A DNA stretch of 64,000 bases from Tabrizicola sp. (GTDB taxonomy: Bacteria > Pseudomonadota > Alphaproteobacteria > Rhodobacterales > Rhodobacteraceae). A program made the translations under genes and the position numbers. The stretch covers positions 1 to 64,000 of the forward strand of contig JALOTD010000045.1 of assembly GCA_025458105.1 (NCBI GenBank), in the 5' to 3' direction. Below the pieces are notes generated by a model. It was not told the origin of the DNA. It saw only the letters and a list, made by a program, of their open reading frames with translations, and made no database searches. Below are positions 176 to 64,000 of the stretch, in pieces (positions within the stretch are counted from its first letter, which is position 1; each line of letters begins with the position of its first letter).

Positions 176-1357
176 CTACCGTGTTCCTGCCCAGCGAAGG
201 GCGATTTCACCGGCCCTTGAGCGTGCCAGATGGTTCATTTGCAGCACATCCTCAAGGGTCATTGCCGCATTTGTGCGGCCCATCTCGGGCTCGACTGCGG
301 CAAGCGTGTCCTCGACCACCCCTGCCATGTCCATGAAACCGATGCCGCCCGCCAGGAAATGGTCCAGCGCAATTTCTTTGGCCGCGTTGAAAGCCGCCCC
401 CGCCAGCCCGCGCCGCGCCATGACCTCACGCGCCAGCCGCAAGGCCGGATAGCGGGCCATTTCGGGCGCGCGGAAGCTCAGCGTCGCGATCTGCGCCAGG
501 TCCAGCCGCGCGACGGGCAGGTGCGCCCGGTCCGGCCAGTGCAGCGCATAGCCGATCGAATGGCGCATGTCGGGCGCCCCCAGATGCGCCATGATCGCCC
601 CGTCGCGGTAGCCCACCATCGAATGGATCAGGCTCTCGGGATGGATGATGACCTCGATCTGCGCAGGGTCCACGCCAAAGAATTCGCGGGTCTCGATGAC
701 CTCAAGCGCCTTGTTGAACATGGATGCCGAATCGATGGTGATCCGCTGCCCCATCGCCCAGTTCGGATGCGCGAGCGCCTCCTTGACCGTGGCCTTGGCC
801 AAAGCCTCCAGCGGCCAGTCGCGCAAGGCACCCCCGCTGGCCGTCAGAATGATCCGCTCAACCGCTGCGATGTCTTCACCTGCCAACGCCTGGAAGATCG
901 CGGAGTGCTCGCTGTCCACCGGCAGAATGCGTGCGCCATGCCTGGCCGCCTCGGCCATGAGCAGTGGCCCAGCCGTCACCAGCGTCTCCTTGTTGGCCAG
1001 GGCCAGCGTCGCCCCATGGCGCAGCGCCCGGAACCCCGGCAGCAGCCCGGCAGCACCCACAATCGCGCTCATCACCCAGTCTGCGGGCCGGTCTGCGGCA
1101 TCCGCAATCGCGCCCGGCCCCGCGCCGAACGCAACGCCCGACCCCGCCAGACGCTCGCGCAGCTCGGCCAGACCGCTCTCCTCGGCGCAGACCGCCACCT
1201 CGGCCCGCAACTCCCGCGCCACCTCGGCCAGCCGCGCGATGTTGCGCCCGCCCGTCACCGCGACCACCCGGTACGTCCCCGGTGCTGCCCGCATAAGAAG
1301 GTCCACCGTCTGCTCGCCGATCGACCCGGTGACCCCAAAGATGGAAACGCTGCGCAT
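176..1357 (-). CDS. dxr: 1-deoxy-D-xylulose 5-phosphate reductoisomerase
   Basis: Converts DXP to 2-C-methyl-D-erythritol 4-phosphate with NADPH, the committed step of the MEP isoprenoid pathway, in the cytoplasm. The 393-aa product has the usual length. Visible: the NADPH loop GVTGSIG at residues 8-14, NKET at 122-125, the metal ligands in PVDSEHSAIF (D148, E150), and the substrate motif SMFNKALEVIE with N215, K216 and E219. It overlaps the cdsA stop by one base and is followed by rseP, so it belongs to the uppS-cdsA-dxr-rseP string. Nothing appears missing. Confidence 0.97.
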   Translation of the reverse strand: MRSVSIFGVTGSIGEQTVDLLMRAAPGTYRVVAVTGGRNIARLAEVARELRAEVAVCAEESGLAELRERLAGSGVAFGAGPGAIADAADRPADWVMSAIVGAAGLLPGFRALRHGATLALANKETLVTAGPLLMAEAARHGARILPVDSEHSAIFQALAGEDIAAVERIILTASGGALRDWPLEALAKATVKEALAHPNWAMGQRITIDSASMFNKALEVIETREFFGVDPAQIEVIIHPESLIHSMVGYRDGAIMAHLGAPDMRHSIGYALHWPDRAHLPVARLDLAQIATLSFRAPEMARYPALRLAREVMARRGLAGAAFNAAKEIALDHFLAGGIGFMDMAGVVEDTLAAVEPEMGRTNAAMTLEDVLQMNHLARSRAGEIALRWAGTR

Positions 1358-7110: not shown

Positions 7111-7377
7111 AAGCTACCTTCGGCAAAGTTGCAAGCCGCGACCGTCCATGTCTGTTTCCGACAGGCGATTGGGCCTTTTCGACATGAGCAGGTCGCAAAT
7201 GCACCTTGATGCGGCGAAAGCAGTCGTTGACGTGAGGCTGAAAAAGTTGCGCAATGGATGTTGGAGAGCGTTGGGGAAGCTTCTCGGTCAGGGCGGACAT
7301 CAAGCACCGTCCTCCTGCGAAGCCGGACCCGGCGATACCAGAAACAAAAGCGATAAGAACCTGACAGGGAGACGAGA

Positions 7378-9012
7378 ATGACCAACTTCAATGGCGCTGC
7401 CGGTCTGCACCCGGCGGCAACTATGCACGCCGAGGAATACCGCGCCGGAAAACTTAGCCGCCGCGAATTCCTGACGCGCTCGACCGCGCTGGGCGTCAGC
7501 GCCGCTGCTGCCTATGGCCTCATCGGGCTGTCAGCCCCAGCCCAGGCGCAAGAGGCCAAGGTGGGCGGGATCGTCCGCTGCGCGATGGAAGTGAAGGGCA
7601 CCAAGGACCCACGCCTGGCAGACTGGCCGCAAATTGCCAACGTCTATCGCGGCTGGCTGGAATATCTGATCCAGTACAATGCCGACGGCACGTTCGAAGG
7701 CCGCCTGCTGGAAAGCTGGGAAGCCAACGCCGACGCCACCCAATACACGCTGAAGGTCCGTCCGGGCATCACCTGGAACAACGGTGACCCCTTCACCGCA
7801 GACGACGTGGTGCGCAACTTCGCTCGTTGGGCTGATGGCAATGTCGAAGGCAACGCGATGGCCTCGCGCTTCCCGGGCCTGGTCGACGCAGCAACCAAGA
7901 CCCTGCGCGACGGCGCGGTGGTCAAGGTCGACGACATGACCGTCCAGCTGAACATGTCGGAGTCCGACGTGGCTGTGGTCCCGAACCTGGCCGACTATCC
8001 GGCCGCGGTGGTTCATTCCAGCTTTGTCGATGGCGAAGACCCCTCGGCCAACCCGATCGGCACCGGCCCCTACGTCCCGCAAGAGGTTGCGGTCGGACAG
8101 AAGGCCGTTCTGGTCCGCGCGCCGAACCACACCTGGTGGGGCGGCACGGCACCCTTGGACGAGATCCACTACATCGACTTCGGCACCGACCCCTCGACCA
8201 TGGTGGCACTTGCCGGCTCGGACGAGATCGACTGCAACTACGAGACCACCGGCGACTTCATCGAGCAGATGGACGCGCTCGGCTGGCAGAAAAAGGAAGT
8301 CGTCACCGCTGCGACCATCGTCGTGCGGATGAACTCGGCCACCTCCGACCTTTACAAGGACAAGGCCGTGCGTCAGGCGATCCAGCTGGCGGTCGATCCG
8401 AAGGTCGTGCTGGAACTCGGCTACAACAACCTGGGCACCACGGCGGAAAACCACCACGCCTGCCCGGTGCACCCGGAATATGCCCAGCTTCCGCCCCAGA
8501 CCATCGATCCGTCGAAACTGGCCCCAGCACTTGAAGCCGCCGGCCTGACCGGGGCCGAGTTCGAGGTTATCTCGCTGGATGACGGTTTCGAGGCCGCGAC
8601 GACTGCCGCCGTGGTGGCACAGCTGAAGGACGCCGGGCTGAACGTCAAGCACACGGTCATGCCGGGCTCGACCTTCTGGAACGACTGGCAGAAGTACCCG
8701 TTCTCCTCGACGACCTGGAACCACCGCCCGCTTGCGGTGCAGAACATGTCGCTGGCCTACACTTCGACGGGGTCCTGGAACGAAACCGGTATGGCCAATG
8801 CCGAGTTCGACGCCGCGATGACCCAAGCTCTGGCGCTGGCCGATGCCGACGCCCGGCGCGAGGTGGCCGCCAAGCTGCAGGCCATCCTGCAGGACGAAGG
8901 CTACATCATCCAGCCCTACTGGCGGTCGCTCTTCGCCCATGTGAAGGAAGGCTTCAACGTCGAACGCCATCCCTCGAACGAGCATCAGCACTACAAGTGG
9001 TCGGTGGCCTGA
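7378..9012 (+). CDS. Peptide/nickel-type ABC transporter substrate-binding protein (Tat-exported)
   Basis: A 544-aa SBP_bac_5 (cluster C) periplasmic binding protein. The twin-arginine motif SRREFL at residues 27-32, a hydrophobic stretch and a probable cleavage after AQA at about residue 57 indicate Tat export. The body has the family pattern for extended-peptide or sugar-oligomer binders, including YTLKVRPGITWNNGDPFTA. A GC hairpin follows the stop, and the two permeases and a fused ATPase come next, so this is the first gene of a complete importer. The true substrate cannot be read from sequence. Confidence 0.93.
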   Translation: MTNFNGAAGLHPAATMHAEEYRAGKLSRREFLTRSTALGVSAAAAYGLIGLSAPAQAQEAKVGGIVRCAMEVKGTKDPRLADWPQIANVYRGWLEYLIQYNADGTFEGRLLESWEANADATQYTLKVRPGITWNNGDPFTADDVVRNFARWADGNVEGNAMASRFPGLVDAATKTLRDGAVVKVDDMTVQLNMSESDVAVVPNLADYPAAVVHSSFVDGEDPSANPIGTGPYVPQEVAVGQKAVLVRAPNHTWWGGTAPLDEIHYIDFGTDPSTMVALAGSDEIDCNYETTGDFIEQMDALGWQKKEVVTAATIVVRMNSATSDLYKDKAVRQAIQLAVDPKVVLELGYNNLGTTAENHHACPVHPEYAQLPPQTIDPSKLAPALEAAGLTGAEFEVISLDDGFEAATTAAVVAQLKDAGLNVKHTVMPGSTFWNDWQKYPFSSTTWNHRPLAVQNMSLAYTSTGSWNETGMANAEFDAAMTQALALADADARREVAAKLQAILQDEGYIIQPYWRSLFAHVKEGFNVERHPSNEHQHYKWSVA

Positions 9013-9026
9013 TCCGGTGACAGTCT

Positions 9027-9054
9027 GGGCGCGCTTGACGGCGCGCCCGGTTTT
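9027..9054 (+). terminator. GC hairpin after the binding-protein gene
   Basis: Arms GGGCGCGC (9027-9034) and GCGCGCCC (9041-9048) with a 6-nt loop, then GGTTTT. Such a partial terminator or 3' stabilising hairpin after the binding protein is common in ABC operons and raises its level relative to the permeases (inference). Confidence 0.6.
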
Positions 9055-9126
9055 CCGCCCCGCCCCAGCCTGCCGTCGTCAGCGCCCGCGCTGTAGACTT
9101 TGCCCGCACGGAGCAGAGGTAGCCTC

Positions 9127-10206
9127 ATGCTGATCTTCATTGCCAGACGCCTGGGACTTATGGTTCTGACGGCCTTCGTGCTGACCTTCGTCGTCTTCTA
9201 TCTGACGAACCTGCCGCCGAACCTTGAGAAACTCGCCCGCAGCGAGGGCTCGGTCCGGATGTCGGACGAGGCCGTCGCGCAGTGGATCATCGACAACGGT
9301 CACGGCGGGTCGGTGCTTGGCCGCTACGGCCAATGGCTGGGCGTCGTTCCGGGCTGGCAGAATGTCGACGAAAAGGGCGTGCCGCGCGGCCGCTGCTTTG
9401 CCGCTGGAACCGATCCTGCCGCCGCACCGCGCTATTGTGGCGTCCTGCAAGGCAATTGGGGTTATTCCACCTTCTTCCGCGGCCCGGTCCTGCAGAATCT
9501 GGGCGAGAAGCTTGCCGCCACCGGCTGGCTTATGTTGTGGGTCATGATCGTCATGGTCCCGACCTCGCTTGTCATCGGCGTGGTCTCGGGCATGCGCGAA
9601 GGCAGCCGGACCGACCGGGTGCTCTCGACCTTCTCGATCGCCACCACCGCTACCCCGGAATATGTCTCGGGCGTGATTCTCGTAGCCCTGCTCGCCTCCC
9701 CGGTGACCGGCCTCTCGCCGCTTTTGGCCGACTGGGGCTGGATCGACGGCAAGGTGCTCTTCCAGGGCGCGGCCTCGCCGGACAAGATCACGTTCTGGAG
9801 CTTCACCCTCCCCGTCCTGACCATCGCGCTTTACGGCATCGGCTACATTGCCCGGATGACCCGCGCCTCGATGACCGAGGTGATGACCGCGCAATACATC
9901 CGGACCGCGCGGCTGAAAGGGGTCAGCTTCGGACAGGTTGTCATGAAGCACGCCCTTCGGAACGCGCTCATCGCGCCGTTCACGGTCATCATGCTGCAGT
10001 TTCCCTGGCTTCTGAACGGCGTGGTCATTGTCGAGACCCTCTTCAACTACAAGGGCTTCGGTTGGACGCTGGTCCAGGCCGCGGGCAACAATGACATCAA
10101 CCTCCTGCTCGGCTGTTCGGTCGTGGCGGTGTTCGTGGTGCTGGTGACCCAGCTGATCTCGGACATTGGCTACGTCTTCCTGAACCCGCGCATCCGGTTG
10201 TCGTAA
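9127..10206 (+). CDS. Peptide-type ABC transporter permease (DppB-like)
   Basis: A 359-aa inner-membrane permease. The N-terminal LIFIARRLGLMVLTAF helix and the cytoplasmic coupling loop IRTARLKGVSFGQVVMKHAL (EAA-type) define it as DppB/OppB-like. A roughly 100-residue periplasmic insert after the first helix contains two cysteines (RGRCFAAG and RYCGVL) that could pair. ATG 9127 is preferred over 9100 because AGAGGT precedes it and the helix starts at once. It lies 12 nt upstream of the second permease. Confidence 0.92.
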   Translation: MLIFIARRLGLMVLTAFVLTFVVFYLTNLPPNLEKLARSEGSVRMSDEAVAQWIIDNGHGGSVLGRYGQWLGVVPGWQNVDEKGVPRGRCFAAGTDPAAAPRYCGVLQGNWGYSTFFRGPVLQNLGEKLAATGWLMLWVMIVMVPTSLVIGVVSGMREGSRTDRVLSTFSIATTATPEYVSGVILVALLASPVTGLSPLLADWGWIDGKVLFQGAASPDKITFWSFTLPVLTIALYGIGYIARMTRASMTEVMTAQYIRTARLKGVSFGQVVMKHALRNALIAPFTVIMLQFPWLLNGVVIVETLFNYKGFGWTLVQAAGNNDINLLLGCSVVAVFVVLVTQLISDIGYVFLNPRIRLS

Positions 10207-53003: not shown

Positions 53004-54116
53004 CTATGCGGCCAGCGCGGCGTCGATGGCCTGCCAAAGCACCTCGACCGGCTCGATCCCCACCGAGAGGCGGATAAAGCCGTCCGGTACGGCATCGCCC
53101 CAGCGCGCGCGGCGTTCGGCGGAGGAATGGGTCGCGCCGAAACTGGTAGACTGCGCAAGGTAGGGACATGCGGATAAAAACCGTTCGGCCACGCCCGCAT
53201 CGGCGAGAGTGAAGCCGATCAGGAAGCCACCGTTCGCCATCTGTCCCCCCACCATCCGGTGCGAGGGGTCGCTCGGCAGGCCAGGATAGCGCAAGGCGCG
53301 CACTGCCGGATGCACGGCCAGCCGTTCGGCGATGATGCGGGCCGATGTGCACATGCGGTCCAAGCGCAGTTCCAGGGTCTCCAGCCCACGGTGCAGAAGC
53401 CAGGCCTCGAACGGACCGAGCGTTGCCCCCGAAAGTCTGCGCCAGTCGCGCACCCGCGCCATGAGGGCTGAATCGCACCCCGCTACATGACCGGCCAGAA
53501 GGTCGGAATGCCCCCCCGGCGCCTTGGTGTCGGCGGCGACCACAAGGTCAGCACCAAGGTCCAGCGGGCGCTGTAGATAGGGCGTCATCGTGGTGTTGTC
53601 GACGACAACCCGTGCGCCCGCCGCCTTTGCCCGTTCCGCCACGGCCCGGATATCGCACACGTCGAGACCGGGGTTCGACGGCGTCTCCAGATAGACCAGG
53701 GCCGCGCCGGAGAGGTCGGCGCTGTCGTAGTCGGCGGTCGGCAGCATCCGTGCGGTGACACCGAGACCTTGCAAAAACTCGGTCGCGAGGACCCGGGTGA
53801 CGTAGTAGCCGTCCGAAGGGAGGATCACCGTATCCCCCGTCTTCAGGCAGGCAAAAAGCGCCGCTGCAATCGCGGCCATGCCAGAGGGGAAGGCCACCGT
53901 TTCGGCGTTTTCCAGAAGCGAGAGCTGTGCCTCAAGCTCGGACCAGGTCGGCGTCCCGGCGCGGGAATAGCTGAAGGCCCCGGTGCCATTGGCGGGGAGG
54001 TGGAAGGTCGTTCCGGGCACGATCGCCGGGGCGATGGGGTCGCCGGGAGAGAGGCTTGCCTTGCGGTGGTGCAAAAGCCGGGCGGCGCGGCTTGCCGTGT
54101 CGTCGGTCATGGTCAT
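53004..54116 (-). CDS. Cys/Met-metabolism PLP enzyme (cystathionine gamma-synthase/lyase-like)
   Basis: A 370-aa fold-type I PLP enzyme. Blocks: FSYSRAGTPTWSELE, FPSGMAAIAAALFA, VYLETPSNPGLDVCDI, VVDNTTMTPYLQRPL and the PLP lysine in ADTKAPGGHSDLL. True members usually read S-x-T-K-Y there; A-P here may alter specificity. It is the last gene of the seven-gene operon, overlapping the upstream dehydrogenase by 4 nt. The reaction (gamma-elimination, gamma-replacement or another) cannot be told. Confidence 0.88.
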   Translation of the reverse strand: MTMTDDTASRAARLLHHRKASLSPGDPIAPAIVPGTTFHLPANGTGAFSYSRAGTPTWSELEAQLSLLENAETVAFPSGMAAIAAALFACLKTGDTVILPSDGYYVTRVLATEFLQGLGVTARMLPTADYDSADLSGAALVYLETPSNPGLDVCDIRAVAERAKAAGARVVVDNTTMTPYLQRPLDLGADLVVAADTKAPGGHSDLLAGHVAGCDSALMARVRDWRRLSGATLGPFEAWLLHRGLETLELRLDRMCTSARIIAERLAVHPAVRALRYPGLPSDPSHRMVGGQMANGGFLIGFTLADAGVAERFLSACPYLAQSTSFGATHSSAERRARWGDAVPDGFIRLSVGIEPVEVLWQAIDAALAA

Positions 54117-55012
54117 TCCAGCCGGGCCGGAAAGCCCGGTGCGCGAAGGTCGGTCTTCAGCAGGTCTTCCAGCAGCTTGGCAATCATCGGCGATTGCGCC
54201 TCGCCGCCATAGGCCGCTTTTGCAGCGATGTAGGTCTGGTTGGTTACCCCTGCGAGGTCGAGGGGCACGCCGAATTCCTTGCCGAAGCCAAGCGCAAAGC
54301 CGAGGTCTTTCAGCGCCAGGTCAATGTTGAAGGCGATGTCGTAGGACCCGTTCAGGATCAGCGCGCCTTCGGTTTCGTGGACAAACGAGTTGCCGGAGGA
54401 GGCCTGGATCGCATGCCAGGACTGGGCAAGGTCCAGCCCGCCGCGTTTGGCCAGCATCAGCGCCTCGGAGGTGGCTTTCAGGTGGATGAAGGCCAGCATG
54501 TTGGTGATCACCTTGATGATCGCGGCGCTGCCCAGCGGCCCCATGTGGAACATCCTGTTGCCGATGACCGACAGCGCCGGGCGGTGGAGGTCGATCAGCT
54601 CTGGCTCGCCACCGAGAAGCACGGTGATCTCGCCCCGCGCGGCAAGGTGAACGCCGCCGGTCACCGGGGCCTCTAGCAGCTGCACGCCGCCAGAGCGCGC
54701 CAGGCCCGCAAGCCGCAACACGTCGTCGCGGCTGAGGGTCGAGTTCTCGATCCAGGTAGCACCCGGTTTCAGGCCGGTCATCAGTTCCGCCAACACCGCC
54801 TCGGACACGGCAGGGTTCGGCAGGCAGGTGAAGACATGGTCCACCTGCCCGGCCATTTCGGTGACCGAGGCTGCCACAGTGGCCCCCATCGCCCGGTGAC
54901 GGTCGGCCAAGCCCGCATTGCGGTCATAGACCGTGAGCCGATGGCCCGCCTTCAAAAGGCTGGCCGCGATGTGGCCGCCGAGGTTTCCCAAGCCGATGTA
55001 CCCGTAGTGCAT
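54113..55012 (-). CDS. 3-hydroxyisobutyrate-dehydrogenase-family enzyme
   Basis: A 299-aa NAD(P)-dependent beta-hydroxyacid dehydrogenase: N-terminal YIGLGNLGGHIAASLL, EAPVTGGVHLAARGEIT, and catalytic Lys in IIKVITNMLAF. Family members oxidise 3-hydroxyisobutyrate or tartronate semialdehyde, or reduce short aldehydes. It follows the aldehyde dehydrogenase, suggesting consecutive oxidation steps. Overlaps the PLP enzyme by 4 nt. Confidence 0.88.
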   Translation of the reverse strand: MHYGYIGLGNLGGHIAASLLKAGHRLTVYDRNAGLADRHRAMGATVAASVTEMAGQVDHVFTCLPNPAVSEAVLAELMTGLKPGATWIENSTLSRDDVLRLAGLARSGGVQLLEAPVTGGVHLAARGEITVLLGGEPELIDLHRPALSVIGNRMFHMGPLGSAAIIKVITNMLAFIHLKATSEALMLAKRGGLDLAQSWHAIQASSGNSFVHETEGALILNGSYDIAFNIDLALKDLGFALGFGKEFGVPLDLAGVTNQTYIAAKAAYGGEAQSPMIAKLLEDLLKTDLRAPGFPARLE

Positions 55013-55027
55013 GTTCCCCCCCGCGTA

Positions 55028-55048
55028 CGATTTTTCGACGAAAAATCG
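55028..55048 (-). terminator. Palindrome inside the methylamine-type operon
   Basis: CGATTTTTCG, A, CGAAAAATCG: a perfect 10-bp stem in the only sizeable gap (41 nt) of the operon, between the aldehyde dehydrogenase and the dehydrogenase after it. There is no T-run after it on the minus strand, so it may be a partial terminator or RNA-processing site that lowers the last two genes. Confidence 0.55.
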
Positions 55049-55053
55049 GTTCC

Positions 55054-56459
55054 TTACGCCTCACCGTAGCCCACGATGCCCTTGACCTCGCAGAAGTCAT
55101 GGATGCCCCAGTCGGCATATTCGCGGCCGTTGCCGGACTGCTTGTAGCCGCCGAAGGGGGCCGAGGTGTCCCAGTCGGGATAGTTCAGGTTCACGGTCCC
55201 GGCCCGCAAGCGGCGCGCCACGGGCTTTGCGTCCTCGACCGGTCCGGCGATATAAGCGGCAAGACCGTAGACGGTATCATTGGCCTGCTGGATCGCGTCC
55301 TCGATGCTGTCATAGGGCTGGATCGCCAGCACCGGTCCGAAGATCTCTTCCTTCGAGATCGTCATGGAATTGACCACATCGCCAAAGACCGTGGGCCGGA
55401 CGAACCAGCCGCGGTTCAGGTCGGCCGGGCGGCCCACGCCGCCGGTCACGAGCGTCGCGCCTTCGTCGATCCCGGCCTGGATCAGGCGCTGGACCTTGTC
55501 GAACTGCAGCTTTGACACGAGTGGGCCCATTTCGGTGGCCTCGTCGCGCGGATCGCCGACCTTGATCTTCTCGGCGGCCTCCTTGGCGGCTTTCAGGGCC
55601 TCGGCCTGCTTGTTGCGGGGCACGAGCATGCGGGTCGGCGCGTCGCAGGACTGGCCGGTGTTCGACATGACGGCATGTTCGCGGTCGGCAGGATGATGTT
55701 GGGCGACTTGCCCCCCATCTCTTGCGCCACGCGCTTGGCCGTGGGGGCGGCGACAGCGGCGATCTGGGTTCCGGCGCGGGTCGAGCCGGTGAAGCTGACC
55801 ATGTCGACCTCGGGGTGTTCGGACATTCGCGCGCCGACCTCGGGCCCCGCGCCATGGACCAGGTTGAAGACCCCTGGCGGCACGCCCGCGTCATGGCAGA
55901 CCTGAGCGAAAAGCGTGCCCGAAAGCGGCGCGATTTCCGACGGCTTCAGCACCATCGTGCAGCCCGCGATCAGCGCCGGGGCCACCTTGCAGGCGATCTG
56001 GTTCATCGGCCAGTTCCAGGGCGTGATCAGCGAGCAGACGCCAATCCCCTCATAGACGATCCGGGTGGTGCCGCGGTTGTATTCCCAGACGAATTCCTCA
56101 CCCGCCTTGATCGTCGCCTCGAAATGCACTTGCCCGGCCCAGGCCTGTGCGTTGCGGGCCCAGGTGATCGGCGCGCCCATCTCGGTCGACATGACCTGCG
56201 CGAAATCCTCGTACCGCTCGTTGTAGATCTCGAGGATGCGCTTCACGATGGCCAGACGTTCCTTGGCAGGGCGGTAGGTCCAGCTGTCGAAGGCCGCACG
56301 AGCCGCCAGGATGGCGCGGTCGGCGTCCTCACGACTGCCCATCGCCACTTCGCAGACGATCTCCTCGGTCGCGGGGTTTTCCACGCCCATGCGGTTCTTG
56401 GAAATGGGGTCCACCCATTGGCCATTGATGTAGAATTTCAGCATGTTGGCGGGGATCAT
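55054..56459 (-). pseudogene. Aldehyde dehydrogenase family protein, frameshifted
   Basis: N-terminal fragment from 56459: FYINGQWVDP, LITPWNWPMNQIACK, FTGSTRAGTQIA and EMGGKSPNIILPTAN. Near 55673 the frame changes and the rest continues from SNTGQSCDAPTRMLV (catalytic Cys in GQSC) to a normal C-terminus with PFGGYKQSGNGRE at 55054. Relatives have about a dozen more residues between the two parts, so a small deletion with frame loss fits best. ATG 56459 has GAGG 7 nt upstream. It lies 7 nt after the MttB homologue. The likely role is oxidation of an aldehyde from the preceding steps. Confidence 0.85.
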
Positions 56460-56466
56460 TGCGACC

Positions 56467-58032
56467 TCACTTGAAGTAGATGTTGAAGCGGGCACGAATG
56501 GCGGCGTCAATCTCTGGGTCGACGCGGCACCCTGCCTTGGCGAGGATAGAGTTCTTGCGGGCGATGGCGGTGTCAAGCAGAAGCGGTTTTCCGGCCTCGT
56601 TCCATTCTTTGGGCGACATGCGGTTCGCGACCTTGGGGTAGATGTATTCGGTCTGCATCAGCTTTAGCGTCTGATCAGAGCCGAGATAATGGCCCGGCCC
56701 GCCAAGGCAGACGTCCTTCATCGCGTCGATGGACGTGCTGTCTGGCGTCACGTCGATGCCCCGCACCAACCGCATGGCCTGCCCCAAGAGATCATCGCCA
56801 AGCACCAGGGATTCGAGGCAGAAGCCGAGGAGCGAGGCGTGCATCCCGACAGCCTCGTAGCACATGTTGAGGCCCGCAAGTCCGGCCAGCGCATTGGTGA
56901 TCCCCTGTTCCCATCCGGCCTGCATGTCGGGGAGTTTGGAGTCACTGATCCCGCTCGCCGCCCCGCCAGGAAGGCCATAATAGCGGTGCATCTGTGCGCA
57001 GCCGGCGGTCAAAAGCGCCTGTTCGGCGCTGCCGCCCGACATGGCCCCTGTGCGCAAGTCACTGACGAAGGGCCAGGTGCCAAAAATCGCCGGGGCGCCG
57101 GGCTTGATCGCGTTCACGTACACCACGCCGGCGAGGCACTCGGCGACCGCCTGCACGATGGCAAGCGCGATGGGCGCGGGCGCAGTTGCCCCGGCCTGAC
57201 CTGCGCTTAGAAGAAGCATCGGCATCCCTCGCCGAATGCAATCCTCCATCGTGATGCAGGATTCCTCGGCGAACTTCATCGGGGGCACGACAAAGCAGTT
57301 CGAGTTCGAGACGAAGGGGCGTTCCAGCCATTTCTCCTCTCCCCCCGCAACCATGTAGAGCATTTCGAAACAATCAGCGACATGGGAGGGGTCGGAAAAG
57401 CTGGTGCCGACATGCTTTACGGTGCCTGCAAGGCTGCCATAAAGCGTGTTCAGGTCCATCTCCTTGTTGTCCTTAACGTCCCGGCAGACCATGGTCCGCT
57501 GGTAAAAGTGGATGTTGTCCAGGTTGTCGACCAGCCGGGCCGCGTCATACAGGTCCTGCGCGGTCGATTCGCGGTAGTCCAGCGTGATCGGATCGACAAT
57601 ATGGACCGCAGCCCCCGCGGTGCCGTAGTGGACGTTGGTCCCCGTCAGGTGCAGGTCGTGTTTCGGGTCGCGGGCGTAAAGGGTGATGTCGCGGGCGGCA
57701 ACGCTCAGCATGTCCTCGACCAGCGCGCGGGGAAAGCGGATGCGGCCGTCATCGCCCAGGATCGCGCCCGCTTCGGTCAGAAGCTTCACGCCAGATGGCG
57801 GGGCCTGCGACAGGCCGATCTGTTCCAGCGCATCCAGTGCGGCGGCGTGGATCTGTTGAACTCCGGCCTCGGTCAGGGGCTTGTACTGGCCGCCGGGCAG
57901 GCCGGGACGGACGGGTTTCACGTCATCGGCAAGGGGTGCGGCGCGCAGCGCCACCCGGGCCTGACGGCCCCCGGAACGGCGGGCGCGGGCAGGTTCGCAG
58001 GTTTCGCCCAAAAGGCTGGTGTCATCGGTCAT
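56467..58032 (-). CDS. Trimethylamine-methyltransferase (MttB) superfamily protein, non-pyrrolysine type
   Basis: A 521-aa MttB homologue. The reading frame is complete with no internal amber codon, so it is the non-Pyl class, whose characterised members demethylate quaternary amines such as glycine betaine using a corrinoid protein. Blocks: LTEAGVQQIHAAALDALEQI, VHYGTAGAAVHIVD, NSNCFVVPPMKFAEES and GGSAEQALLTAGCAQMHRYY. It overlaps the PEP-mutase-like gene by 4 nt. No corrinoid protein or methyl-corrinoid:folate methyltransferase gene is in the operon. Substrate inferred to be a methylated ammonium compound. Confidence 0.88.
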   Translation of the reverse strand: MTDDTSLLGETCEPARARRSGGRQARVALRAAPLADDVKPVRPGLPGGQYKPLTEAGVQQIHAAALDALEQIGLSQAPPSGVKLLTEAGAILGDDGRIRFPRALVEDMLSVAARDITLYARDPKHDLHLTGTNVHYGTAGAAVHIVDPITLDYRESTAQDLYDAARLVDNLDNIHFYQRTMVCRDVKDNKEMDLNTLYGSLAGTVKHVGTSFSDPSHVADCFEMLYMVAGGEEKWLERPFVSNSNCFVVPPMKFAEESCITMEDCIRRGMPMLLLSAGQAGATAPAPIALAIVQAVAECLAGVVYVNAIKPGAPAIFGTWPFVSDLRTGAMSGGSAEQALLTAGCAQMHRYYGLPGGAASGISDSKLPDMQAGWEQGITNALAGLAGLNMCYEAVGMHASLLGFCLESLVLGDDLLGQAMRLVRGIDVTPDSTSIDAMKDVCLGGPGHYLGSDQTLKLMQTEYIYPKVANRMSPKEWNEAGKPLLLDTAIARKNSILAKAGCRVDPEIDAAIRARFNIYFK

Positions 58033-58859
58033 TGGGCGGATCCCTTGAAAAGGAGTGCATCGATGTCGTCGCCGCTGGCGGTGGCCATGAGTGGCGCGAA
58101 GGAGCCGTGGTCCAGCATCGCGCTGACACTGTCGCGGATGGCGGCATGGGTCAGGCGGGCGATCTGGCTGCCGGTGGAAATGCGGCGGACGCCTAATGTT
58201 GCCAGATCTGCAACAGTCAGGCTTTTCAGCGGCCCGGCGGCGAGGGCGTTCACCGGCTTGGTGACCGAGGCCAGGATCTGGCGCAGTTCCTCGCGCCCCG
58301 GCGGCACGGGAATGTAGAGGAGGTCGGCCCCCGCGGCCTGAAACGCCTGCAGGCGACGGATGCCTTCGGCCAGGTCATAGGTGCCGTGCATGACGCCATC
58401 GGCCCGGGCGCAGAAGATGAAGGGGCGGCGCAGCGCGCGGGCGGCGGCGGCCCCTGCCCTGATACGTTCCACTGCCAGATCAAAGGCATAGGGCGCGTTG
58501 CCGGGGATCATCTGTGTGTCCTCGACGCTGATCCCGGACAGGCCGATCTCGGCAGACAGACGGACGGTTTCGGCCACCGTATCGGGGCTGTCGCCAAAGC
58601 CATTCTCGAAGTCGCCGGACACGGGCAGCGGCGTCGCGGCGATCAGGTCCTGGGCATGGGCCAAAGCCTCGTCCCTGGTCACGCCGCCAAGGTCGGGGCG
58701 GCCCAGGGTGAAGGCATGGGCGGCGGAGCTGGTCGCCAGCGCCTTGGCCCCAAGGGCCGCCATCATCCTGGCCGAGCCCCGGTCCCAGGGGTTCGGGATG
58801 ACGAAGCAGCCCGCCTGGTGCAGGTCGTGGAAGCCCTGATGGCGGGCGGCCAGCGTCAT
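58029..58859 (-). CDS. Isocitrate lyase/PEP mutase superfamily protein
   Basis: A 276-aa (beta/alpha)8 enzyme: VIPNPWDRGSARMMAALGAK, ATSSAAHAFTLGRPD, VSGDFENGFGDSPDTVAETV and the metal-binding ISVEDTQMIPG. This is the PrpB/oxaloacetate-decarboxylase-like subgroup, which cleaves or decarboxylates 2-oxo or 2-hydroxy acids. In this operon it may process the carbon skeleton left after demethylation. Overlaps both neighbours by 4 nt. Confidence 0.87.
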   Translation of the reverse strand: MTLAARHQGFHDLHQAGCFVIPNPWDRGSARMMAALGAKALATSSAAHAFTLGRPDLGGVTRDEALAHAQDLIAATPLPVSGDFENGFGDSPDTVAETVRLSAEIGLSGISVEDTQMIPGNAPYAFDLAVERIRAGAAAARALRRPFIFCARADGVMHGTYDLAEGIRRLQAFQAAGADLLYIPVPPGREELRQILASVTKPVNALAAGPLKSLTVADLATLGVRRISTGSQIARLTHAAIRDSVSAMLDHGSFAPLMATASGDDIDALLFKGSAQ

Positions 58860-61294
58860 GCGCGCACCCGGTCGGATTTCGGGTCGTGCATGGGCACAAG
58901 GCTGGCGATGGCCGCGTGGCGCTGGCCGGCGACCTCGATTTCGTAGGTGGAGCCCAGGATGTCGTCGTCGCTTTGTCCTTTGGCCGGGACATAGCCCATG
59001 CCGATCGCCCCGCCGAGGAAATGGCCGTAGTTGCCGCTGGTCACGGGGCCAACGATTTTCCCATCGCGGACAATGGCTTCGTTGTGGAAGAGAAGCGGTT
59101 CGGGGTCCTTCAGGCGGAATTGGAGCATCTTGCGGGCAAGCCCCGCATCCTCTTTCCGCAGGACGGCGTCGCGGCCGAAGAAGGCGGGCTTCTTGCGGCT
59201 GACGGTGAAGCCGAGGCCCGCTTCCAGCACGTGGTCTTCATCCGTTATGTCGTGGCCCCAGTGGCGGTAGGCCTTCTCAATCCGGCAGGAATCCAGCGTG
59301 TGGAGGCCGCAGAGCTTCAGGTCGGGCTGGGCCTCCAGAAAGGCTTCGAAGACATGGGCAGTCTGGTCGGCGCTGACGTAAAGCTCCCACCCCAGCTCGC
59401 CCACATAGGTCACGCGATGCGCTCGGGCGAGGCCCATCCCGATCTCGATTTCCCGCGCCACGCCAAAGGGATGGGCCGCGTTGCTGAAGTCGTTGGGTGA
59501 GACTTTGGCCAGCACGTCACGCGACTGCGGGCCCATCAGGCAGAGGACGGACTCGGCCGCGGTGACATCGGTGATGACCGCGAAGTCGTCCCCCACATGG
59601 GCCCGCATCCAGGCGAGGTTGCGTTGCAGCGTAGCACCCGGAACGACGGCGAGATAGGCGGTCTCGGACAGGCGGGTGATGGTAAGGTCGGCCTCTATCC
59701 CCCCGCTTTCGTTGAGGAACATGGTGTAGACGATCTTCCCCGCCGGGACATCCATTTGCGCCGACGCGATCCGGTTGAGGAAGGCGCAGGCATCGCGCCC
59801 CTCCACCCGGATCTTGCCGAAGCTGGTCATGTCGAAGAGACCAGCAGAGGTGCGGACGGCCATATGTTCGGCGCGCTGGTTATCAAACCAGTTCTGCCGC
59901 TTCCAGCTGTAGCGGTACTCCCGCTCCTGCCCCTCGTTCGCGAACCAGTTGGCGCGTTCCCAACCCGCGACCTCGCCAAACACCGCCCCACGGGCCTTCA
60001 GGTGTTCGTGGATCGGCGACCGGCGGACGCCCCGCGAGGTCACCACCTGACGGTAGGGGAAGTGGTCGGCGTAAAGGAGGCCGAGGGTCTCCGTCACCCG
60101 CTCCTTCAGGTAGCGGCGATTCTTCTGGAAGGGCTGCGCCCGGCGGATGTCGACTTCCCAGAGGTCGAAGGGCGGCTCGCCCTCGGTGATCCAGTGCGCC
60201 AGCGCCTGACCGGCCCCGCCCGAGGAGACGATGCCGATGGAATTGTATCCAGCGGCGATCCAATAGCCCTTCACCTCGGGCGCCTCGCCCAGGTAGTAAC
60301 GGTCGTCGGGGGTGAAGCTTTCGGGCCCGTTGAAAAAGGTGTGGATGCCCGCGGTCTGGAACAGCGGCATCCGGTTCATCGCGTGTTCCAGGATGGGCAT
60401 GAAGTGGTCCCAGTCCTCGGGCAGCGTGTCGAATTCGAAGTCCTTGCGGATGCCCTCCATGCCCCAGGGCTTGGCCTTCGGCTCGAAGGCGCCCAGCATC
60501 ATCTTGCCCGCATCCTGCTTGTAATAGGCGCATTCGTCCGGCACCCGCAGGACCGGCAAATCCTTAAGTCCGTCAACGGGTTCGGTGACGAGGTAGAAGT
60601 GTTCGCAGGCATACAGCGGCAGCGTGACGCCGTTCTGCGCGGCAAGGTCCCGGCCCCACATCCCGCCGCAGTTCACGATGACATCGGCCTCGATATGCCC
60701 CGGGCCTTCGGCGGTCTCATAGTCCACGCCTGTCACCCGGCCACCCGAGGTCATGACCTTGGTGACCAGCGCCCCTTCAAAGATCTTCGCGCCCCGCATC
60801 CGCGCGCCCTTGGCCAAGGCCATCGCGATGTTGGCCGGGTCGCATTGTCCATCCAGAGGCAACGCCACTGCGCCCACCACGTCGGACACGTTCAAATGCG
60901 GATAGCGCGCCTTCACCTCACCCGGCGAAATCTCGTGCACCTCCACATTGAAAATCCGCGCCACCGTGGCCTGGCGCAGCAATTCCTCATGCCGCTCTGC
61001 CGTCAGCGCCACGGAAATCGACCCGACCTGCTTCATCCCCGTCGCAACGCCGGTTTCAGCCTCCAGCCCCCGGTACAGATCCGCCGAATACTTCGCCAGC
61101 CGCGTCATGTTGGCCGACCCGCGCAGCTGCCCGATCAGCCCGGCCGCGTGCCAGGTTGTCCCGCTCGTCAGCTTCCGCCGTTCCAGCAGCACCACGTCGG
61201 TCCAGCCCGCCTTGGCCAGGTGATAGGCCACCGAACAGCCCGAGACCCCGCCCCCGATCACCACCGCCCGCGCCTTGGTTGGAATCTCAGCCAT
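58856..61294 (-). CDS. FAD-dependent demethylating dehydrogenase (dimethylglycine/sarcosine DH-like), copy 2
   Basis: An 812-aa two-domain enzyme. Residues of about 8-400 are a DAO-type FAD domain: VVIGGGVSGCSVAYHLAKAG and TSGTTWHAAGL, whose His is the covalent flavin site in dimethylglycine dehydrogenase. Residues of about 430-800 are a GcvT-like folate-binding domain (MTSFGKIRVEGRDAC, LGWELYVSADQT). Such enzymes oxidise N-methyl groups and pass formaldehyde equivalents to tetrahydrofolate. It is a tandem paralogue of the next gene upstream in the operon, overlapping it by 8 nt. Confidence 0.9.
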   Translation of the reverse strand: MAEIPTKARAVVIGGGVSGCSVAYHLAKAGWTDVVLLERRKLTSGTTWHAAGLIGQLRGSANMTRLAKYSADLYRGLEAETGVATGMKQVGSISVALTAERHEELLRQATVARIFNVEVHEISPGEVKARYPHLNVSDVVGAVALPLDGQCDPANIAMALAKGARMRGAKIFEGALVTKVMTSGGRVTGVDYETAEGPGHIEADVIVNCGGMWGRDLAAQNGVTLPLYACEHFYLVTEPVDGLKDLPVLRVPDECAYYKQDAGKMMLGAFEPKAKPWGMEGIRKDFEFDTLPEDWDHFMPILEHAMNRMPLFQTAGIHTFFNGPESFTPDDRYYLGEAPEVKGYWIAAGYNSIGIVSSGGAGQALAHWITEGEPPFDLWEVDIRRAQPFQKNRRYLKERVTETLGLLYADHFPYRQVVTSRGVRRSPIHEHLKARGAVFGEVAGWERANWFANEGQEREYRYSWKRQNWFDNQRAEHMAVRTSAGLFDMTSFGKIRVEGRDACAFLNRIASAQMDVPAGKIVYTMFLNESGGIEADLTITRLSETAYLAVVPGATLQRNLAWMRAHVGDDFAVITDVTAAESVLCLMGPQSRDVLAKVSPNDFSNAAHPFGVAREIEIGMGLARAHRVTYVGELGWELYVSADQTAHVFEAFLEAQPDLKLCGLHTLDSCRIEKAYRHWGHDITDEDHVLEAGLGFTVSRKKPAFFGRDAVLRKEDAGLARKMLQFRLKDPEPLLFHNEAIVRDGKIVGPVTSGNYGHFLGGAIGMGYVPAKGQSDDDILGSTYEIEVAGQRHAAIASLVPMHDPKSDRVRA

Positions 61295-63716
61295 TCTTCC
61301 GGTCCTCGTTCTTCGCGTCCCAGGCCGGGCCGTCCGGCAGGACCGTTGCCTTCACGCGGTCGCCGAAGATCTCCACCTCGACTACCGTCCCCGCCACCGC
61401 AAGGTCCGTCCGCAGCATCCCCAGCGCCATGGAATGGCCTACCCGGTAGCCCCACGCACCCGAAGTCGTCTCGCCGACCACCTGCCCGCCATGCCACAGC
61501 GTCGACATGTAGGGCGCGTCACACTCCCCCGCCTCGACCTTTAAGGACACGAACCGCTTCTTCACCCCGCGCTGCTTCTCCGCCGCCAAAGCCGCCTTGC
61601 CGGGGAACTCATGGCCCCAGTCGATGAACCGCTCCAGCCCGCCTTCCAGCAGCGAATAGTCGGTGGACAGATCGCCCTTCCAGGCGCGGTAGCCCTTCTC
61701 GATCCGCATGGAGTTCAGCGCCCGCATACCGAAGGGTTTGGCACCCCCCGCAAGCAGTGCGTCGTAGATATGCGGCGCATCTGCCCGGTCGCAGTGGATT
61801 TCCCAGCCAAGCTCGCCCGCAAAGGACACCCGGACCAGCGCCACGTCCTTGCCCGCCACCTTGGCGAAATACTGCACCGAGAGCCACGGCAGCGTCAGGT
61901 CCGCCTCTGCGATCCCCGCGAGCAGATCGCGCGCCTTGGGGCCGGTGACGATGAAGCAGTGGATCTGGTCGGTCCAGTCCTCCAGCGTGACGCCTTCGGG
62001 CAGACCTTTGCGCAGGATGTCGGCGTCGTGGGACTGCGCGACGGCGGCGGTGATCACTCCGACGTCCTCGTCGCTGAACGGCAGGCACGTCATCTCGGTG
62101 ACGATCCGGCCGCGGTCATCGGCAAAGTACAGAAGGCCCGTGCGCCCTGGCTGCGGCAGCTTCGACGCGGTCAGCGACGCCAGATGCGCCCGTGCGCCGG
62201 ACCCCGCCAGCCGCAGGCGGGTAAAGCCCGGCAGGTCCAGGACGCCGACCCCATCCCGCACCGCCTCGCATTCGGCCTTGATCCGGGCCTCCCAAGGGCC
62301 CGCACGGCCCCAGGTCTGGGTCGCCTCCCAGGACGTATCATCACCAGGGGCCGCAAACCACTCCGCCCGTTCCCAGCCGTTGTAGGGCGCGAACTGGGCG
62401 CCGAGGGCCTTGAGCTTGTCATGCACCGGCGAAAGCTTGCGGTCGGGCGCGGCAGGCCAGCGGGCCATCGGGAAGTGCATCCCGTATTCGTGGCCGTAGA
62501 CCTCCATCCCCTTCTGGACGAGGTAGTCGTGATCCTCCCAACCCGTGAAGCGGCGCGGGTCGCAGGACCACATGTCCCATTCCGTGCCGCCCTCGGTGAC
62601 CCATTCCGCCAGCACCTTCCCCGCGCCGCCCGCCTGGCAGATGCCGAAGGTGAAGACGCAGGCCTCGAACGCGTTCGGGACGCCGGGCATCGGGCCGATC
62701 AGCGGATTGCCGTCCGGCGTATAGGGGATCGGGCCGTTGATGACCTTGGTGAGATTGGCCTTCTGCAACAAGGGTACCCGGGCCATCGCGTCGTTGATGT
62801 GCCATTCCAACCGCTCCAGATCGTCAGGGAAGAGCTGGAAGGAGAAATCCTCGGGCATCGGGTCGTCGGGCGTCGCCCAATGCGCGCGGCAGGGGTTCTC
62901 GTAGGGGCCAAGGTTGAAGCCCATCTTTTCCTGCCGCAGGTAGTAGGACGAATCCACGTCGCGGAGGAGCGGCAACTTGTGGCCGACCTCCTTGGTCCAG
63001 GCCTCCAGCTCTGGGATGGTGTCGAACAGCATGTACTGGTGGCTCATCACCATCATCGGGACGCGGCGGCCGAACATCGCGCCAACTTGAGCCGCGTAGT
63101 AACCGCCCGCGTTCACCACGTATTCGGCACGCACCTCGCCTTTCGGAGTGCTAAGAATCCACTCCGACCCAGTCCAGCGTGCCGCCGTCACCGGGCAGAA
63201 CCGTTCCACCCGCGCGCCCAGCTGGCGGGCACCGGCAGCCAGAGCCTGGGTCAACTGCGCGGGGTCAATATCGCCGTCATAGGGATCGTACAGCGCGCCG
63301 GTCAGGTCATGCGTCTCGACGAAGGGGTAGCGGCTGCGGATCTCGTCCGGGCCAAGGATGTTCAGGTCCATCCCCTGATACCGGCCCATCCCGACGACGC
63401 GCTTGAACTCTTGGAGACGCTCCTTCGAATGCCCCAAACGCACCGACCCGGTGACGTGGTAATTCATCGGATAGTTCACCGCCTCGCCCAGGCCCCGGTA
63501 AAGGCTGGCCGAATAGCGCTGCATGTTCATGATCGACCAGGAGGAGGAAAACGTCGGCACGTTCCCCGCCGCATGCCAGGTAGACCCGGCCGTCAGTTCG
63601 TTCTTCTCCAGCAGAAGACAGTCCGTCCACCCCGCCTTCGCCAGATGGTAAAGCGCCGAGGCCCCGACGGCCCCGCCACCAATGATCACCACCCGAGCCG
63701 ATGCAAACTCTGCCAT
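61287..63716 (-). CDS. FAD-dependent demethylating dehydrogenase (dimethylglycine/sarcosine DH-like), copy 1
   Basis: An 809-aa paralogue of the downstream gene and first in the operon. VVIIGGGAVGASALYHLAKA and AGSTWHAAGNVPTF hold the FAD site and flavin-linked His. The C-terminal GcvT half has LPGFTRLRLAGSGA, VSFAGELGWEIHCD and GVKKRFVSL. The two copies differ enough that they are likely to take different N-methyl substrates, for example di- then mono-methylated. The divergent LysR gene is 168 nt away and probably controls it. Confidence 0.9.
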   Translation of the reverse strand: MAEFASARVVIIGGGAVGASALYHLAKAGWTDCLLLEKNELTAGSTWHAAGNVPTFSSSWSIMNMQRYSASLYRGLGEAVNYPMNYHVTGSVRLGHSKERLQEFKRVVGMGRYQGMDLNILGPDEIRSRYPFVETHDLTGALYDPYDGDIDPAQLTQALAAGARQLGARVERFCPVTAARWTGSEWILSTPKGEVRAEYVVNAGGYYAAQVGAMFGRRVPMMVMSHQYMLFDTIPELEAWTKEVGHKLPLLRDVDSSYYLRQEKMGFNLGPYENPCRAHWATPDDPMPEDFSFQLFPDDLERLEWHINDAMARVPLLQKANLTKVINGPIPYTPDGNPLIGPMPGVPNAFEACVFTFGICQAGGAGKVLAEWVTEGGTEWDMWSCDPRRFTGWEDHDYLVQKGMEVYGHEYGMHFPMARWPAAPDRKLSPVHDKLKALGAQFAPYNGWERAEWFAAPGDDTSWEATQTWGRAGPWEARIKAECEAVRDGVGVLDLPGFTRLRLAGSGARAHLASLTASKLPQPGRTGLLYFADDRGRIVTEMTCLPFSDEDVGVITAAVAQSHDADILRKGLPEGVTLEDWTDQIHCFIVTGPKARDLLAGIAEADLTLPWLSVQYFAKVAGKDVALVRVSFAGELGWEIHCDRADAPHIYDALLAGGAKPFGMRALNSMRIEKGYRAWKGDLSTDYSLLEGGLERFIDWGHEFPGKAALAAEKQRGVKKRFVSLKVEAGECDAPYMSTLWHGGQVVGETTSGAWGYRVGHSMALGMLRTDLAVAGTVVEVEIFGDRVKATVLPDGPAWDAKNEDRKNG

Positions 63717-63813
63717 CGCCGCCTCCCTGAACCTCTGCCACTATCCGCTGCCACGCGCCCGCTTTCAATTCGGCGGGAACCGGGCTATTGATCGAAAAAC
63801 CCGATCAAGCGGC

Positions 63814-63884: not shown

Positions 63885-64000
63885 ATGCAGATCGACCTCC
63901 TCGACACCTTCCTTGATCTTGCGGAGACCCGAAGTTTCCACCGCACGGCCGAGCGTCTCAGGATCACGCAGTCCACGGTATCCTCCCGCGTCACGGCACT
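63885..64000 (+). CDS. LysR-type regulator, N-terminal fragment at the window edge
   Basis: The first 38 codons read MQIDLLDTFLDLAETRSFHR followed by TAERLRITQSTVSSRVTA, a classic LysR winged-HTH opening. The gene runs off the right edge. Divergent from the methylated-amine-type operon, so it is the likely regulator; ligand unknown. Confidence 0.88.
   Translation, partial: MQIDLLDTFLDLAETRSFHRTAERLRITQSTVSSRVTA

Follow-up and report, generated by a model that had tools for sequence, protein, structure and literature searches.

A conserved operon in Tabrizicola joins an MtgB2-type methyltransferase to two FAD-GcvT flavoenzymes behind a predicted LysR operator, pointing to betaine demethylation

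The described systems closest to the locus reported here are MttB-superfamily methyltransferases linked to glycine betaine, the mtgC-linked cluster of S. meliloti and the mammalian dimethylglycine dehydrogenase (DMGDH; 5l46, 4p9s, 4pab). MtgB of Desulfitobacterium hafniense (2qne, 9yce), a glycine betaine:corrinoid methyltransferase, is a non-pyrrolysine member of the MttB superfamily. A 2025 paper linked aerobic cobalamin-dependent demethylation of glycine betaine to marine roseobacters and put forward two candidate MtgB proteins (PMC12478193). There, SPO2134 (MtgB2) of Ruegeria pomeroyi is one of two PF06253 proteins reported to increase when cells grow on choline, carnitine or glycine betaine; a genome may have as many as seven PF06253 genes, and other methylated compounds are suggested as substrates. 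Here we describe an operon in a 64,000-nucleotide stretch of DNA from Tabrizicola sp. (contig JALOTD010000045.1, positions 1 to 64,000, hereafter the window), in which an MttB-superfamily gene lies together with two genes for dehydrogenases dependent on flavin adenine dinucleotide (FAD) and carrying a GcvT folate domain. The window belongs to C103, one of 165 contigs in a 4.1-Mb genome assembly with a completeness of 90%.

The operon is real, conserved and specifically regulated, and consists of known kinds of enzymes in a new arrangement. Very probably it is a LysR-controlled demethylation module as such; glycine betaine as the physiological substrate of the module has roughly even chances. 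The literature searched contained no description of such an operon, with PMC12478193 alone directly relevant and PMC9938194 bearing on SPO2133 and SPO2119.

Seven co-directional coding units occupy positions 53004-63716 on the minus strand (Table 1): two FAD-GcvT dehydrogenases (FGT1 and FGT2), an enzyme of the phosphoenolpyruvate (PEP) mutase-like kind (PEPM), MttB, an aldehyde dehydrogenase (ALDH), a beta-hydroxyacid dehydrogenase (HIB) and a pyridoxal phosphate (PLP) enzyme of the cystathionine gamma-lyase family (CGL). A LysR gene diverges from the first unit, FGT1. This layout, including coordinates and families, had been put forward in a sequence-only reading of the window and is borne out by open reading frame and profile evidence. 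The same reading described overlaps of 4-8 nt throughout, which holds at four of the six junctions: in order from FGT1 to the PLP gene, overlaps of 8, 4 and 4 nt are followed by gaps of 7 nt (MttB-ALDH) and 41 nt (ALDH-HIB) and by a last overlap of 4 nt. Of the seven genes, ALDH is the only one that is not intact.

Both flavoenzymes fall into the FAD-GcvT family, as judged from four Pfam domains (in FGT1 DAO, FAO_M, GCV_T and GCV_T_C, all over their cut-offs) and from a TWHAAG motif aligned to human DMGDH, the histidine of which we take to be the covalent-FAD histidine. The best match in the PDB is human DMGDH 5l46 in either case, at 532 bits for FGT1, where HQY and SYYLRQE align as well, and at 438 bits for FGT2. 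Architecture and motifs are thus common to FGT1, FGT2 and the mammalian enzyme; unlike the mammalian system, the operon has two adjoining copies, about 32% identical to each other, with putative substrates.

By its sequence, the window MttB is a non-pyrrolysine MttB-superfamily protein: it lies far above the PF06253 cut-off of 25 bits (Table 1), its frame is open without an in-frame stop, and an ordinary residue, I362, aligns with the pyrrolysine (X) of 7xcl. Gene order, and not a comparison with the SPO2134 sequence itself, identifies it as the orthologue of R. pomeroyi SPO2134. MttB proteins of the MtgB2 type form a clade with a tree support of 0.968 and occur in 81 of 150 family genomes (one per genus), and in rhizobia too. 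In one of these genomes (G081), an arginase gene (TIGR01229, over cut-off) stands exactly 15 genes before MttB, the arginase of R. pomeroyi being SPO2119 (PMC9938194), and a gene for a 172-aa outer-membrane beta-barrel adjoins MttB, in R. pomeroyi SPO2133 being a 178-aa outer membrane protein (PMC9938194). An MtgC-type corrinoid gene and DUF1638 follow at +24 and +26 genes from MttB, to be compared with SPO2160 and SPO2162 at +26 and +28 from SPO2134 (PMC12478193). The barrel, corrinoid and DUF1638 genes are also present in a second genome (G091). Neighbour counts were made with a home-made gene caller over 62 of 66 loci, as it called no MttB in either L197 or L224, and L232 and L233 yielded no genes at all. 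Immediately upstream of MttB, 15 of the 62 (L173 and L174 among them) have the barrel gene on the opposite strand, and 15 loci surrounding other MttB paralogues gave no match to the barrel family. SPO2108 (MtgB1) could not be placed, as neither G081 nor G091 has a second MttB near the corresponding position.

The Tabrizicola genome encodes an MtgC-type corrinoid protein, 89% identical, on contig C18 beside DUF1638 and outside the operon, which is likely the corrinoid partner of MttB, an assignment that stays putative. An orthologous MttB together with genome-encoded MtgC-type corrinoid protein and DUF1638 is what R. pomeroyi DSS-3 likewise has as MtgB2 with MtgC and MtgD (PMC12478193). The difference lies in the arrangement: the R. 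pomeroyi demethylation genes are not co-located according to that paper, whereas here MttB shares a LysR-controlled operon with FGT1, FGT2 and further genes.

The core of the operon recurs widely, in support of the proposal in the sequence-only reading that MttB, two FAD-GcvT enzymes and a divergent LysR form a module stripping quaternary N-methyl groups, and the search for the same gene set that it had called for returned the core in the same genus and in most of the other loci sampled. MttB is found in 31 of 31 same-genus genomes at 90-96% identity (partial in one, in two pieces in another). Sixteen of these 31 loci were fetched with wide flanks; FGT1, FGT2, MttB, HIB and PLP are present in all 16, with FGT1 truncated at the end of a contig in one of them, while PEPM is found in 9. 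All seven genes, ALDH included, stand in a single run in Tabrizicola aquatica RCRI19 (L065/L080). Eighty named loci were chosen by MttB, 15 of them shorter than 15 kb, and close matches were counted (for LysR at 35% identity or more; for ALDH orthologues only, with unrelated rhizobial ALDH genes excluded). FGT2 was found in 65, LysR in 65, FGT1 in 63, HIB in 62, ALDH in 41, PLP in 27 and PEPM in 9. Most of the loci examined in Rhodobacteraceae and Rhizobiaceae share LysR, FGT1, FGT2 and MttB as their core, and the other genes are variable. Sinorhizobium/Ensifer-type loci (L146, L149, L150, L154) keep just LysR-FGT1-FGT2-MttB, and several Yoonia-type loci keep LysR-MttB-HIB. In roseobacter-type genomes, an FGT1 orthologue (67-81%) is present in 12 of 12 searched, 12 kb from MttB in one (G140) and at another place in the remaining ones. 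A second FGT gene lies within a few kb of it in 11 of the 12, mostly with a homocysteine S-methyltransferase-like gene in between (names partly assigned by eye; L249 and L250 were seen in part).

The LysR protein is predicted, from conservation of its putative site, to bind a single pathway-specific operator upstream of the operon. The palindrome TRATCG-N7-CGATYRATW is present in 20 of 20 aligned LysR-FGT1 or LysR-MttB gaps of Rhodobacteraceae and Rhizobiaceae, the same 20 from which the pattern was drawn, and is exact in 68 of 73 such gaps. Among 32 Tabrizicola-genus genomes, exactly one exact site was found in 29 and none in three incomplete ones, with 0 control hits, and each of the 29 falls between LysR and FGT1. 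In Tabrizicola-type gaps, TTGAAA-N17-GATAGT or something very similar comes after the operator, as aligned by eye. A LysR with one site points to a pathway-specific operon. Eleven more distant genomes gave one exact site in seven, extra exact sites in three and a one-mismatch match only in the last; with one mismatch allowed, further matches arose in every one of them, with 3 control hits in all. Neither FGT, MttB nor this LysR was seen at the fetched distant sites away from the known gap, where a single weak HIB match (24%) was found, and two extra exact sites with genes listed adjoin housekeeping-type genes, as read by eye; an exact site (G209:C8) and, in the own genome, a site with one mismatch (C104) lay outside this check. 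A transporter or further regulon members, sought via the operator, were rejected, as no second exact site exists in the 32 genus genomes.

Based on these comparisons, we propose that the module operates as follows. In an aerobic Tabrizicola-type host, a trimethyl-betaine, most likely glycine betaine, would lose its three methyl groups. MttB would pass the first methyl group to the MtgC-type corrinoid protein encoded elsewhere, from which it would reach folate via a putative MtgD-type enzyme. The second and third methyl groups would then be oxidised onto folate by FGT1 and FGT2, as expected from their family. The remaining amine, glycine if glycine betaine is the substrate, may be consumed by HIB, CGL and PEPM, plus ALDH where it is intact; in some relatives, an aminotransferase or the bhc genes may dispose of it instead. 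The reactions, the substrate and the roles of the accessory genes are in this scheme all inferred; the gene set, its conservation, the operator, the gene-order orthology to SPO2134 and the presence of MtgC come from the computation itself, and the rise of SPO2134 on N-osmolytes comes from the literature.

Table 1. Features of the operon and its upstream region, in window coordinates
Feature	Position	Strand	Description
FGT1	61287..63716	-	809 aa, FAD-dependent dehydrogenase with GcvT folate domain, dimethylglycine-dehydrogenase type, first operon gene
FGT2	58856..61294	-	812 aa, second FAD-GcvT dehydrogenase, same Pfam architecture as FGT1
PEPM	58029..58859	-	276 aa, PEP-mutase/isocitrate-lyase superfamily, PF13714 over cut-off, optional gene
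MttB	56467..58032	-	521 aa, non-pyrrolysine MttB-superfamily methyltransferase, PF06253 366 bits
ALDH	55054..56459	-	aldehyde dehydrogenase, broken by 28-nt deletion near 55669-55673
HIB	54113..55012	-	299 aa, beta-hydroxyacid dehydrogenase family (3-hydroxyisobutyrate/tartronate-semialdehyde type), PF03446 and PF14833
PLP enzyme (CGL)	53004..54116	-	370 aa, cystathionine gamma-lyase family, PRK07582 and PF01053
LysR-family regulator, gene start	63885..64000	+	PF00126 and PF03466; runs past the window to contig position 64739
Predicted operator	63786..63807	-	palindrome TGATCG-N7-CGATCAATA between LysR and FGT1
Promoter-like element	63740..63768	-	-35 TTGAAA (63763-63768), 17-nt spacer, -10 GATAGT (63740-63745); by eye from alignment

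The accessory enzymes differ in how closely they can be named. The PLP enzyme reaches the cystathionine gamma-lyase equivalog level (PRK07582 at NCBIfam, 512 bits against a cut-off of 440). HIB, on the basis of profile scores, is placed in its superfamily only and carries no equivalog assignment, with none of its 8 NCBIfam matches reaching the cut-off (best 162 against 350 bits, L-threonate dehydrogenase). PEPM is far below the cut-off in all 5 NCBIfam models matched (methylisocitrate lyase and PEP mutase equivalogs, 70 against 354 bits), and its sequence has neither KKCGH nor KRCGH, presumably the Cys motif of methylisocitrate lyase-type enzymes. As both remain below the cut-offs of every model matched, the reactions of HIB and PEPM are left unassigned. 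For ALDH, the family given in the sequence-only reading is right, but that reading missed that a single gene is split by the deletion. The N-terminal half (frame 55593-56576) and the C-terminal half (55054-55668) are in different frames, with 28 nt missing directly before the catalytic-Cys loop relative to three relatives, and no single open frame runs through that loop; the deletion may be a true lesion or an assembly fault. ALDH matches were obtained in 8 of the 16 wide-flank same-genus loci and none in the other 8, with an open frame confirmed in 3 of the 8.

Other genes accompany the core in particular relatives. Counted by gene clusters over the 80 named loci, MDR genes occur in 11, GMC in 9, HyuA in 6, homocysteine S-methyltransferase in 4 and Rieske genes in 2. 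Choline/betaine-like accessory genes of some relatives include a choline-dehydrogenase-like GMC, a GbcA-like Rieske and a GbdR-like regulator, none over an equivalog cut-off, the regulator having been tested in one of two such roseobacter-type loci. In L144, a Rieske oxygenase of the quaternary-ammonium demethylase type lies at 8374-9606 between FGT2 and MttB, with GbcA as its best NCBIfam match, below cut-off, and PDB 3n0q and Stc2 as further matches; a relative is found after MttB in L153. The bhcR, bhcA, bhcB and bhcC genes of the beta-hydroxyaspartate cycle, which assimilates glyoxylate and glycine, stand beside or near an MtgB2-type MttB in L185, L199 and L227. Their relative orientation does not differ among these loci, for one of which the family names were tested. 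An aminotransferase is within 7 kb of MttB in 25 of the 62 loci and HIB in 12 of the 62, and the two are together in none (Fisher p = 0.0009, uncorrected for phylogeny). In L122, from a metagenome-assembled genome of Rubellimicrobium, two genes lie immediately before MttB at 7127-9900, one for an aminotransferase and one for a 5-guanidino-2-oxopentanoate decarboxylase that exceeds its NCBIfam cut-off. A pyridoxal-dependent decarboxylase-type gene, which glycine betaine does not explain, is near MttB in six loci (L192, L204, L205, L229, L040, L043; the copy tested was L254, of the same genome as L204). Beyond the window, at contig 64765-69601 (L036 2766-7602), LysR is followed by hut genes, namely a HutC-type regulator, HutF, a HutI-type gene and an aromatic amino acid lyase.

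Glycine betaine is favoured as substrate because of SPO2134 induction, the DMGDH motifs of FGT1, the bhc adjacency and the choline/betaine-like accessory genes. Another betaine keeps appreciable weight because this MttB clade stands far from MtgB and has, in every member, two changed positions close to the active site. The term 'unknown methylated amine' used in the sequence-only reading is accordingly partly justified: the orthology to SPO2134 and the response of that protein to N-osmolytes (PMC12478193) speak against it, and the distant clade and the two changed positions speak for it. In contrast, the claim that plain glycine betaine does not fit a PLP lyase and a PEP-mutase-like enzyme is not supported, and excluding glycine betaine on these grounds is rejected; both genes are optional (27 and 9 of the 80 named loci, respectively) and therefore say little about the core substrate.

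Several observations weigh against glycine betaine or against the chain of evidence leading to it. The window MttB scores 189 bits against D. hafniense MtgB, compared with 377 bits for a paralogue of the same genome on contig C99; it is hence not the genome's closest MttB to MtgB, and Glu replaces a conserved His, so that it does not classify strictly as D. hafniense-type MtgB. This residue, E393 in the window protein, is Glu in 158 of 158 clade rows and His in D. hafniense MtgB and in 9 of 9 rows of the other MttB group, one protein being counted twice in these nine. The adjacent Y392 is invariant in the 158 clade rows and mostly Leu (7/9) in the other group, so that Tyr-Glu at window positions 392-393 corresponds to Leu-His in D. 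hafniense MtgB. Y392 aligns with Tyr364 of pyrrolysine MttB, which sits in the active site (PMC9842639); the active-site reading derives from sequence alignment alone. Q279 varies within the clade, where 134 rows have Gln and 24 (including G081) have the Met of MtgB, and is for this reason not leaned on. In Sinorhizobium meliloti and P. aminovorans, a different MttB, 26-29% identical to the MtgB2-type clade, lies beside mtgC. The mtgC-linked S. meliloti cluster with bmt (CP090106.1, L241) combines this MttB with a cobalamin-binding protein, DUF1638 and a methyl-tetrahydrofolate cobalamin methyltransferase; the MttB encoded there falls into the other group, at 27.6% to the window MttB, and the same record has a window-type LysR-FGT1-MttB elsewhere, at L156. 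We note that the paralogue of the Tabrizicola genome closest to these mtgC-linked MttB proteins (G000:C77:34578-36036; L002, L004, L038; 60-65% over 316 aa) is interrupted, with two parts in different frames, which is either real or an assembly error.

Further points on the same side concern gene content and provenance. Glycine betaine does not require HIB, PEPM, CGL, the PLP decarboxylase-type gene or the aminotransferase, all of which turn up repeatedly around the clade, and the bhc adjacency is limited to three loci. The operon has no transporter gene, and the own genome has no second exact operator site, as is also true of each of the 32 genus genomes. As for orthology, G081 and G091 were chosen among the 81 MttB genomes for DUF1638 about 30 kb from MttB, and inspection by eye of the 20 kb before MttB in G091 showed no arginase. 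Finally, the induction of the two PF06253 proteins is reported without an mtgB mutant or assay in the accessible part of PMC12478193.

Taken together, these points give a serious, if less than even, chance to the same machinery acting on another substrate, i.e. a trimethyl-betaine built on an amino-acid skeleton of C3-C4 size that is probably hydroxylated, the demethylated product of which would pass to HIB and ALDH, CGL, an aminotransferase or PEPM. The divergent clade with its changed residues, present beside other-group paralogues in the same genomes, would fit a substrate of its own. HIB follows MttB even without an adjoining FGT gene (LysR, MttB and HIB in this order in L123, L127, L130 and L136), the aminotransferase and HIB never coincide, a decarboxylase-type gene appears in six loci and CGL is over its cut-off. 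Yet all those accessory genes are optional, and the Sinorhizobium/Ensifer-type loci do without any of them; moreover, SPO2134 responds to N-osmolytes (PMC12478193) and FGT1 retains the DMGDH motifs. In a narrower version, which we consider unlikely, the MtgB2 clade instead opens a pathway for a C4 hydroxy-amino-acid betaine, such as trimethylhomoserine, which forms the headgroup of betaine lipids in algae and bacteria, with MttB, FGT1 and FGT2 yielding (O-substituted) homoserine for CGL, HIB/ALDH or aminotransferase/PEPM.

Catabolism of hercynine (histidine betaine) feeding the neighbouring hut pathway is very improbable. It is suggested by the hutC-, hutF-, hutI- and hutH-type genes after LysR and by HutF or HutC in 13 of the 80 named loci, and was downgraded since neither was seen in the other 67 (some stretches being short) and the regulators differ: a HutC-type regulator belongs to the hut genes themselves, while within the genus the LysR operator is found only at this operon. 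HIB, CGL and PEPM would also lack an obvious role. Equally slight is the chance that the module supplies methyl groups for methionine synthesis rather than serving catabolism, as could be supposed from the homocysteine S-methyltransferase-type gene between FGT1 and FGT2 in several loci and from the sharing of R. pomeroyi MtgC with a split methionine synthase (PMC12478193); three demethylation steps and a dedicated LysR suit catabolism better, and the S-methyltransferase is absent from this operon and present in 4 of the 80 loci. That HIB, CGL, PEPM and ALDH are chance neighbours sharing a transcript while serving unrelated pathways fits the free gain and loss of PEPM and ALDH and the broken ALDH here, but is hardly credible given HIB in 62 of the 80 loci, also where no FGT gene adjoins, and the overlapping starts.

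In conclusion, in rhizobia and in freshwater Rhodobacteraceae the operon connects MtgB2 with demethylating flavoenzymes, both physically and through a regulator that has a single predicted site, the host being a freshwater relative of the marine roseobacters. Its specific operator would be usable as a reporter. The substrate of MtgB2 thereby becomes a testable question on the recycling of algal nitrogen osmolytes, or possibly of betaine lipids.

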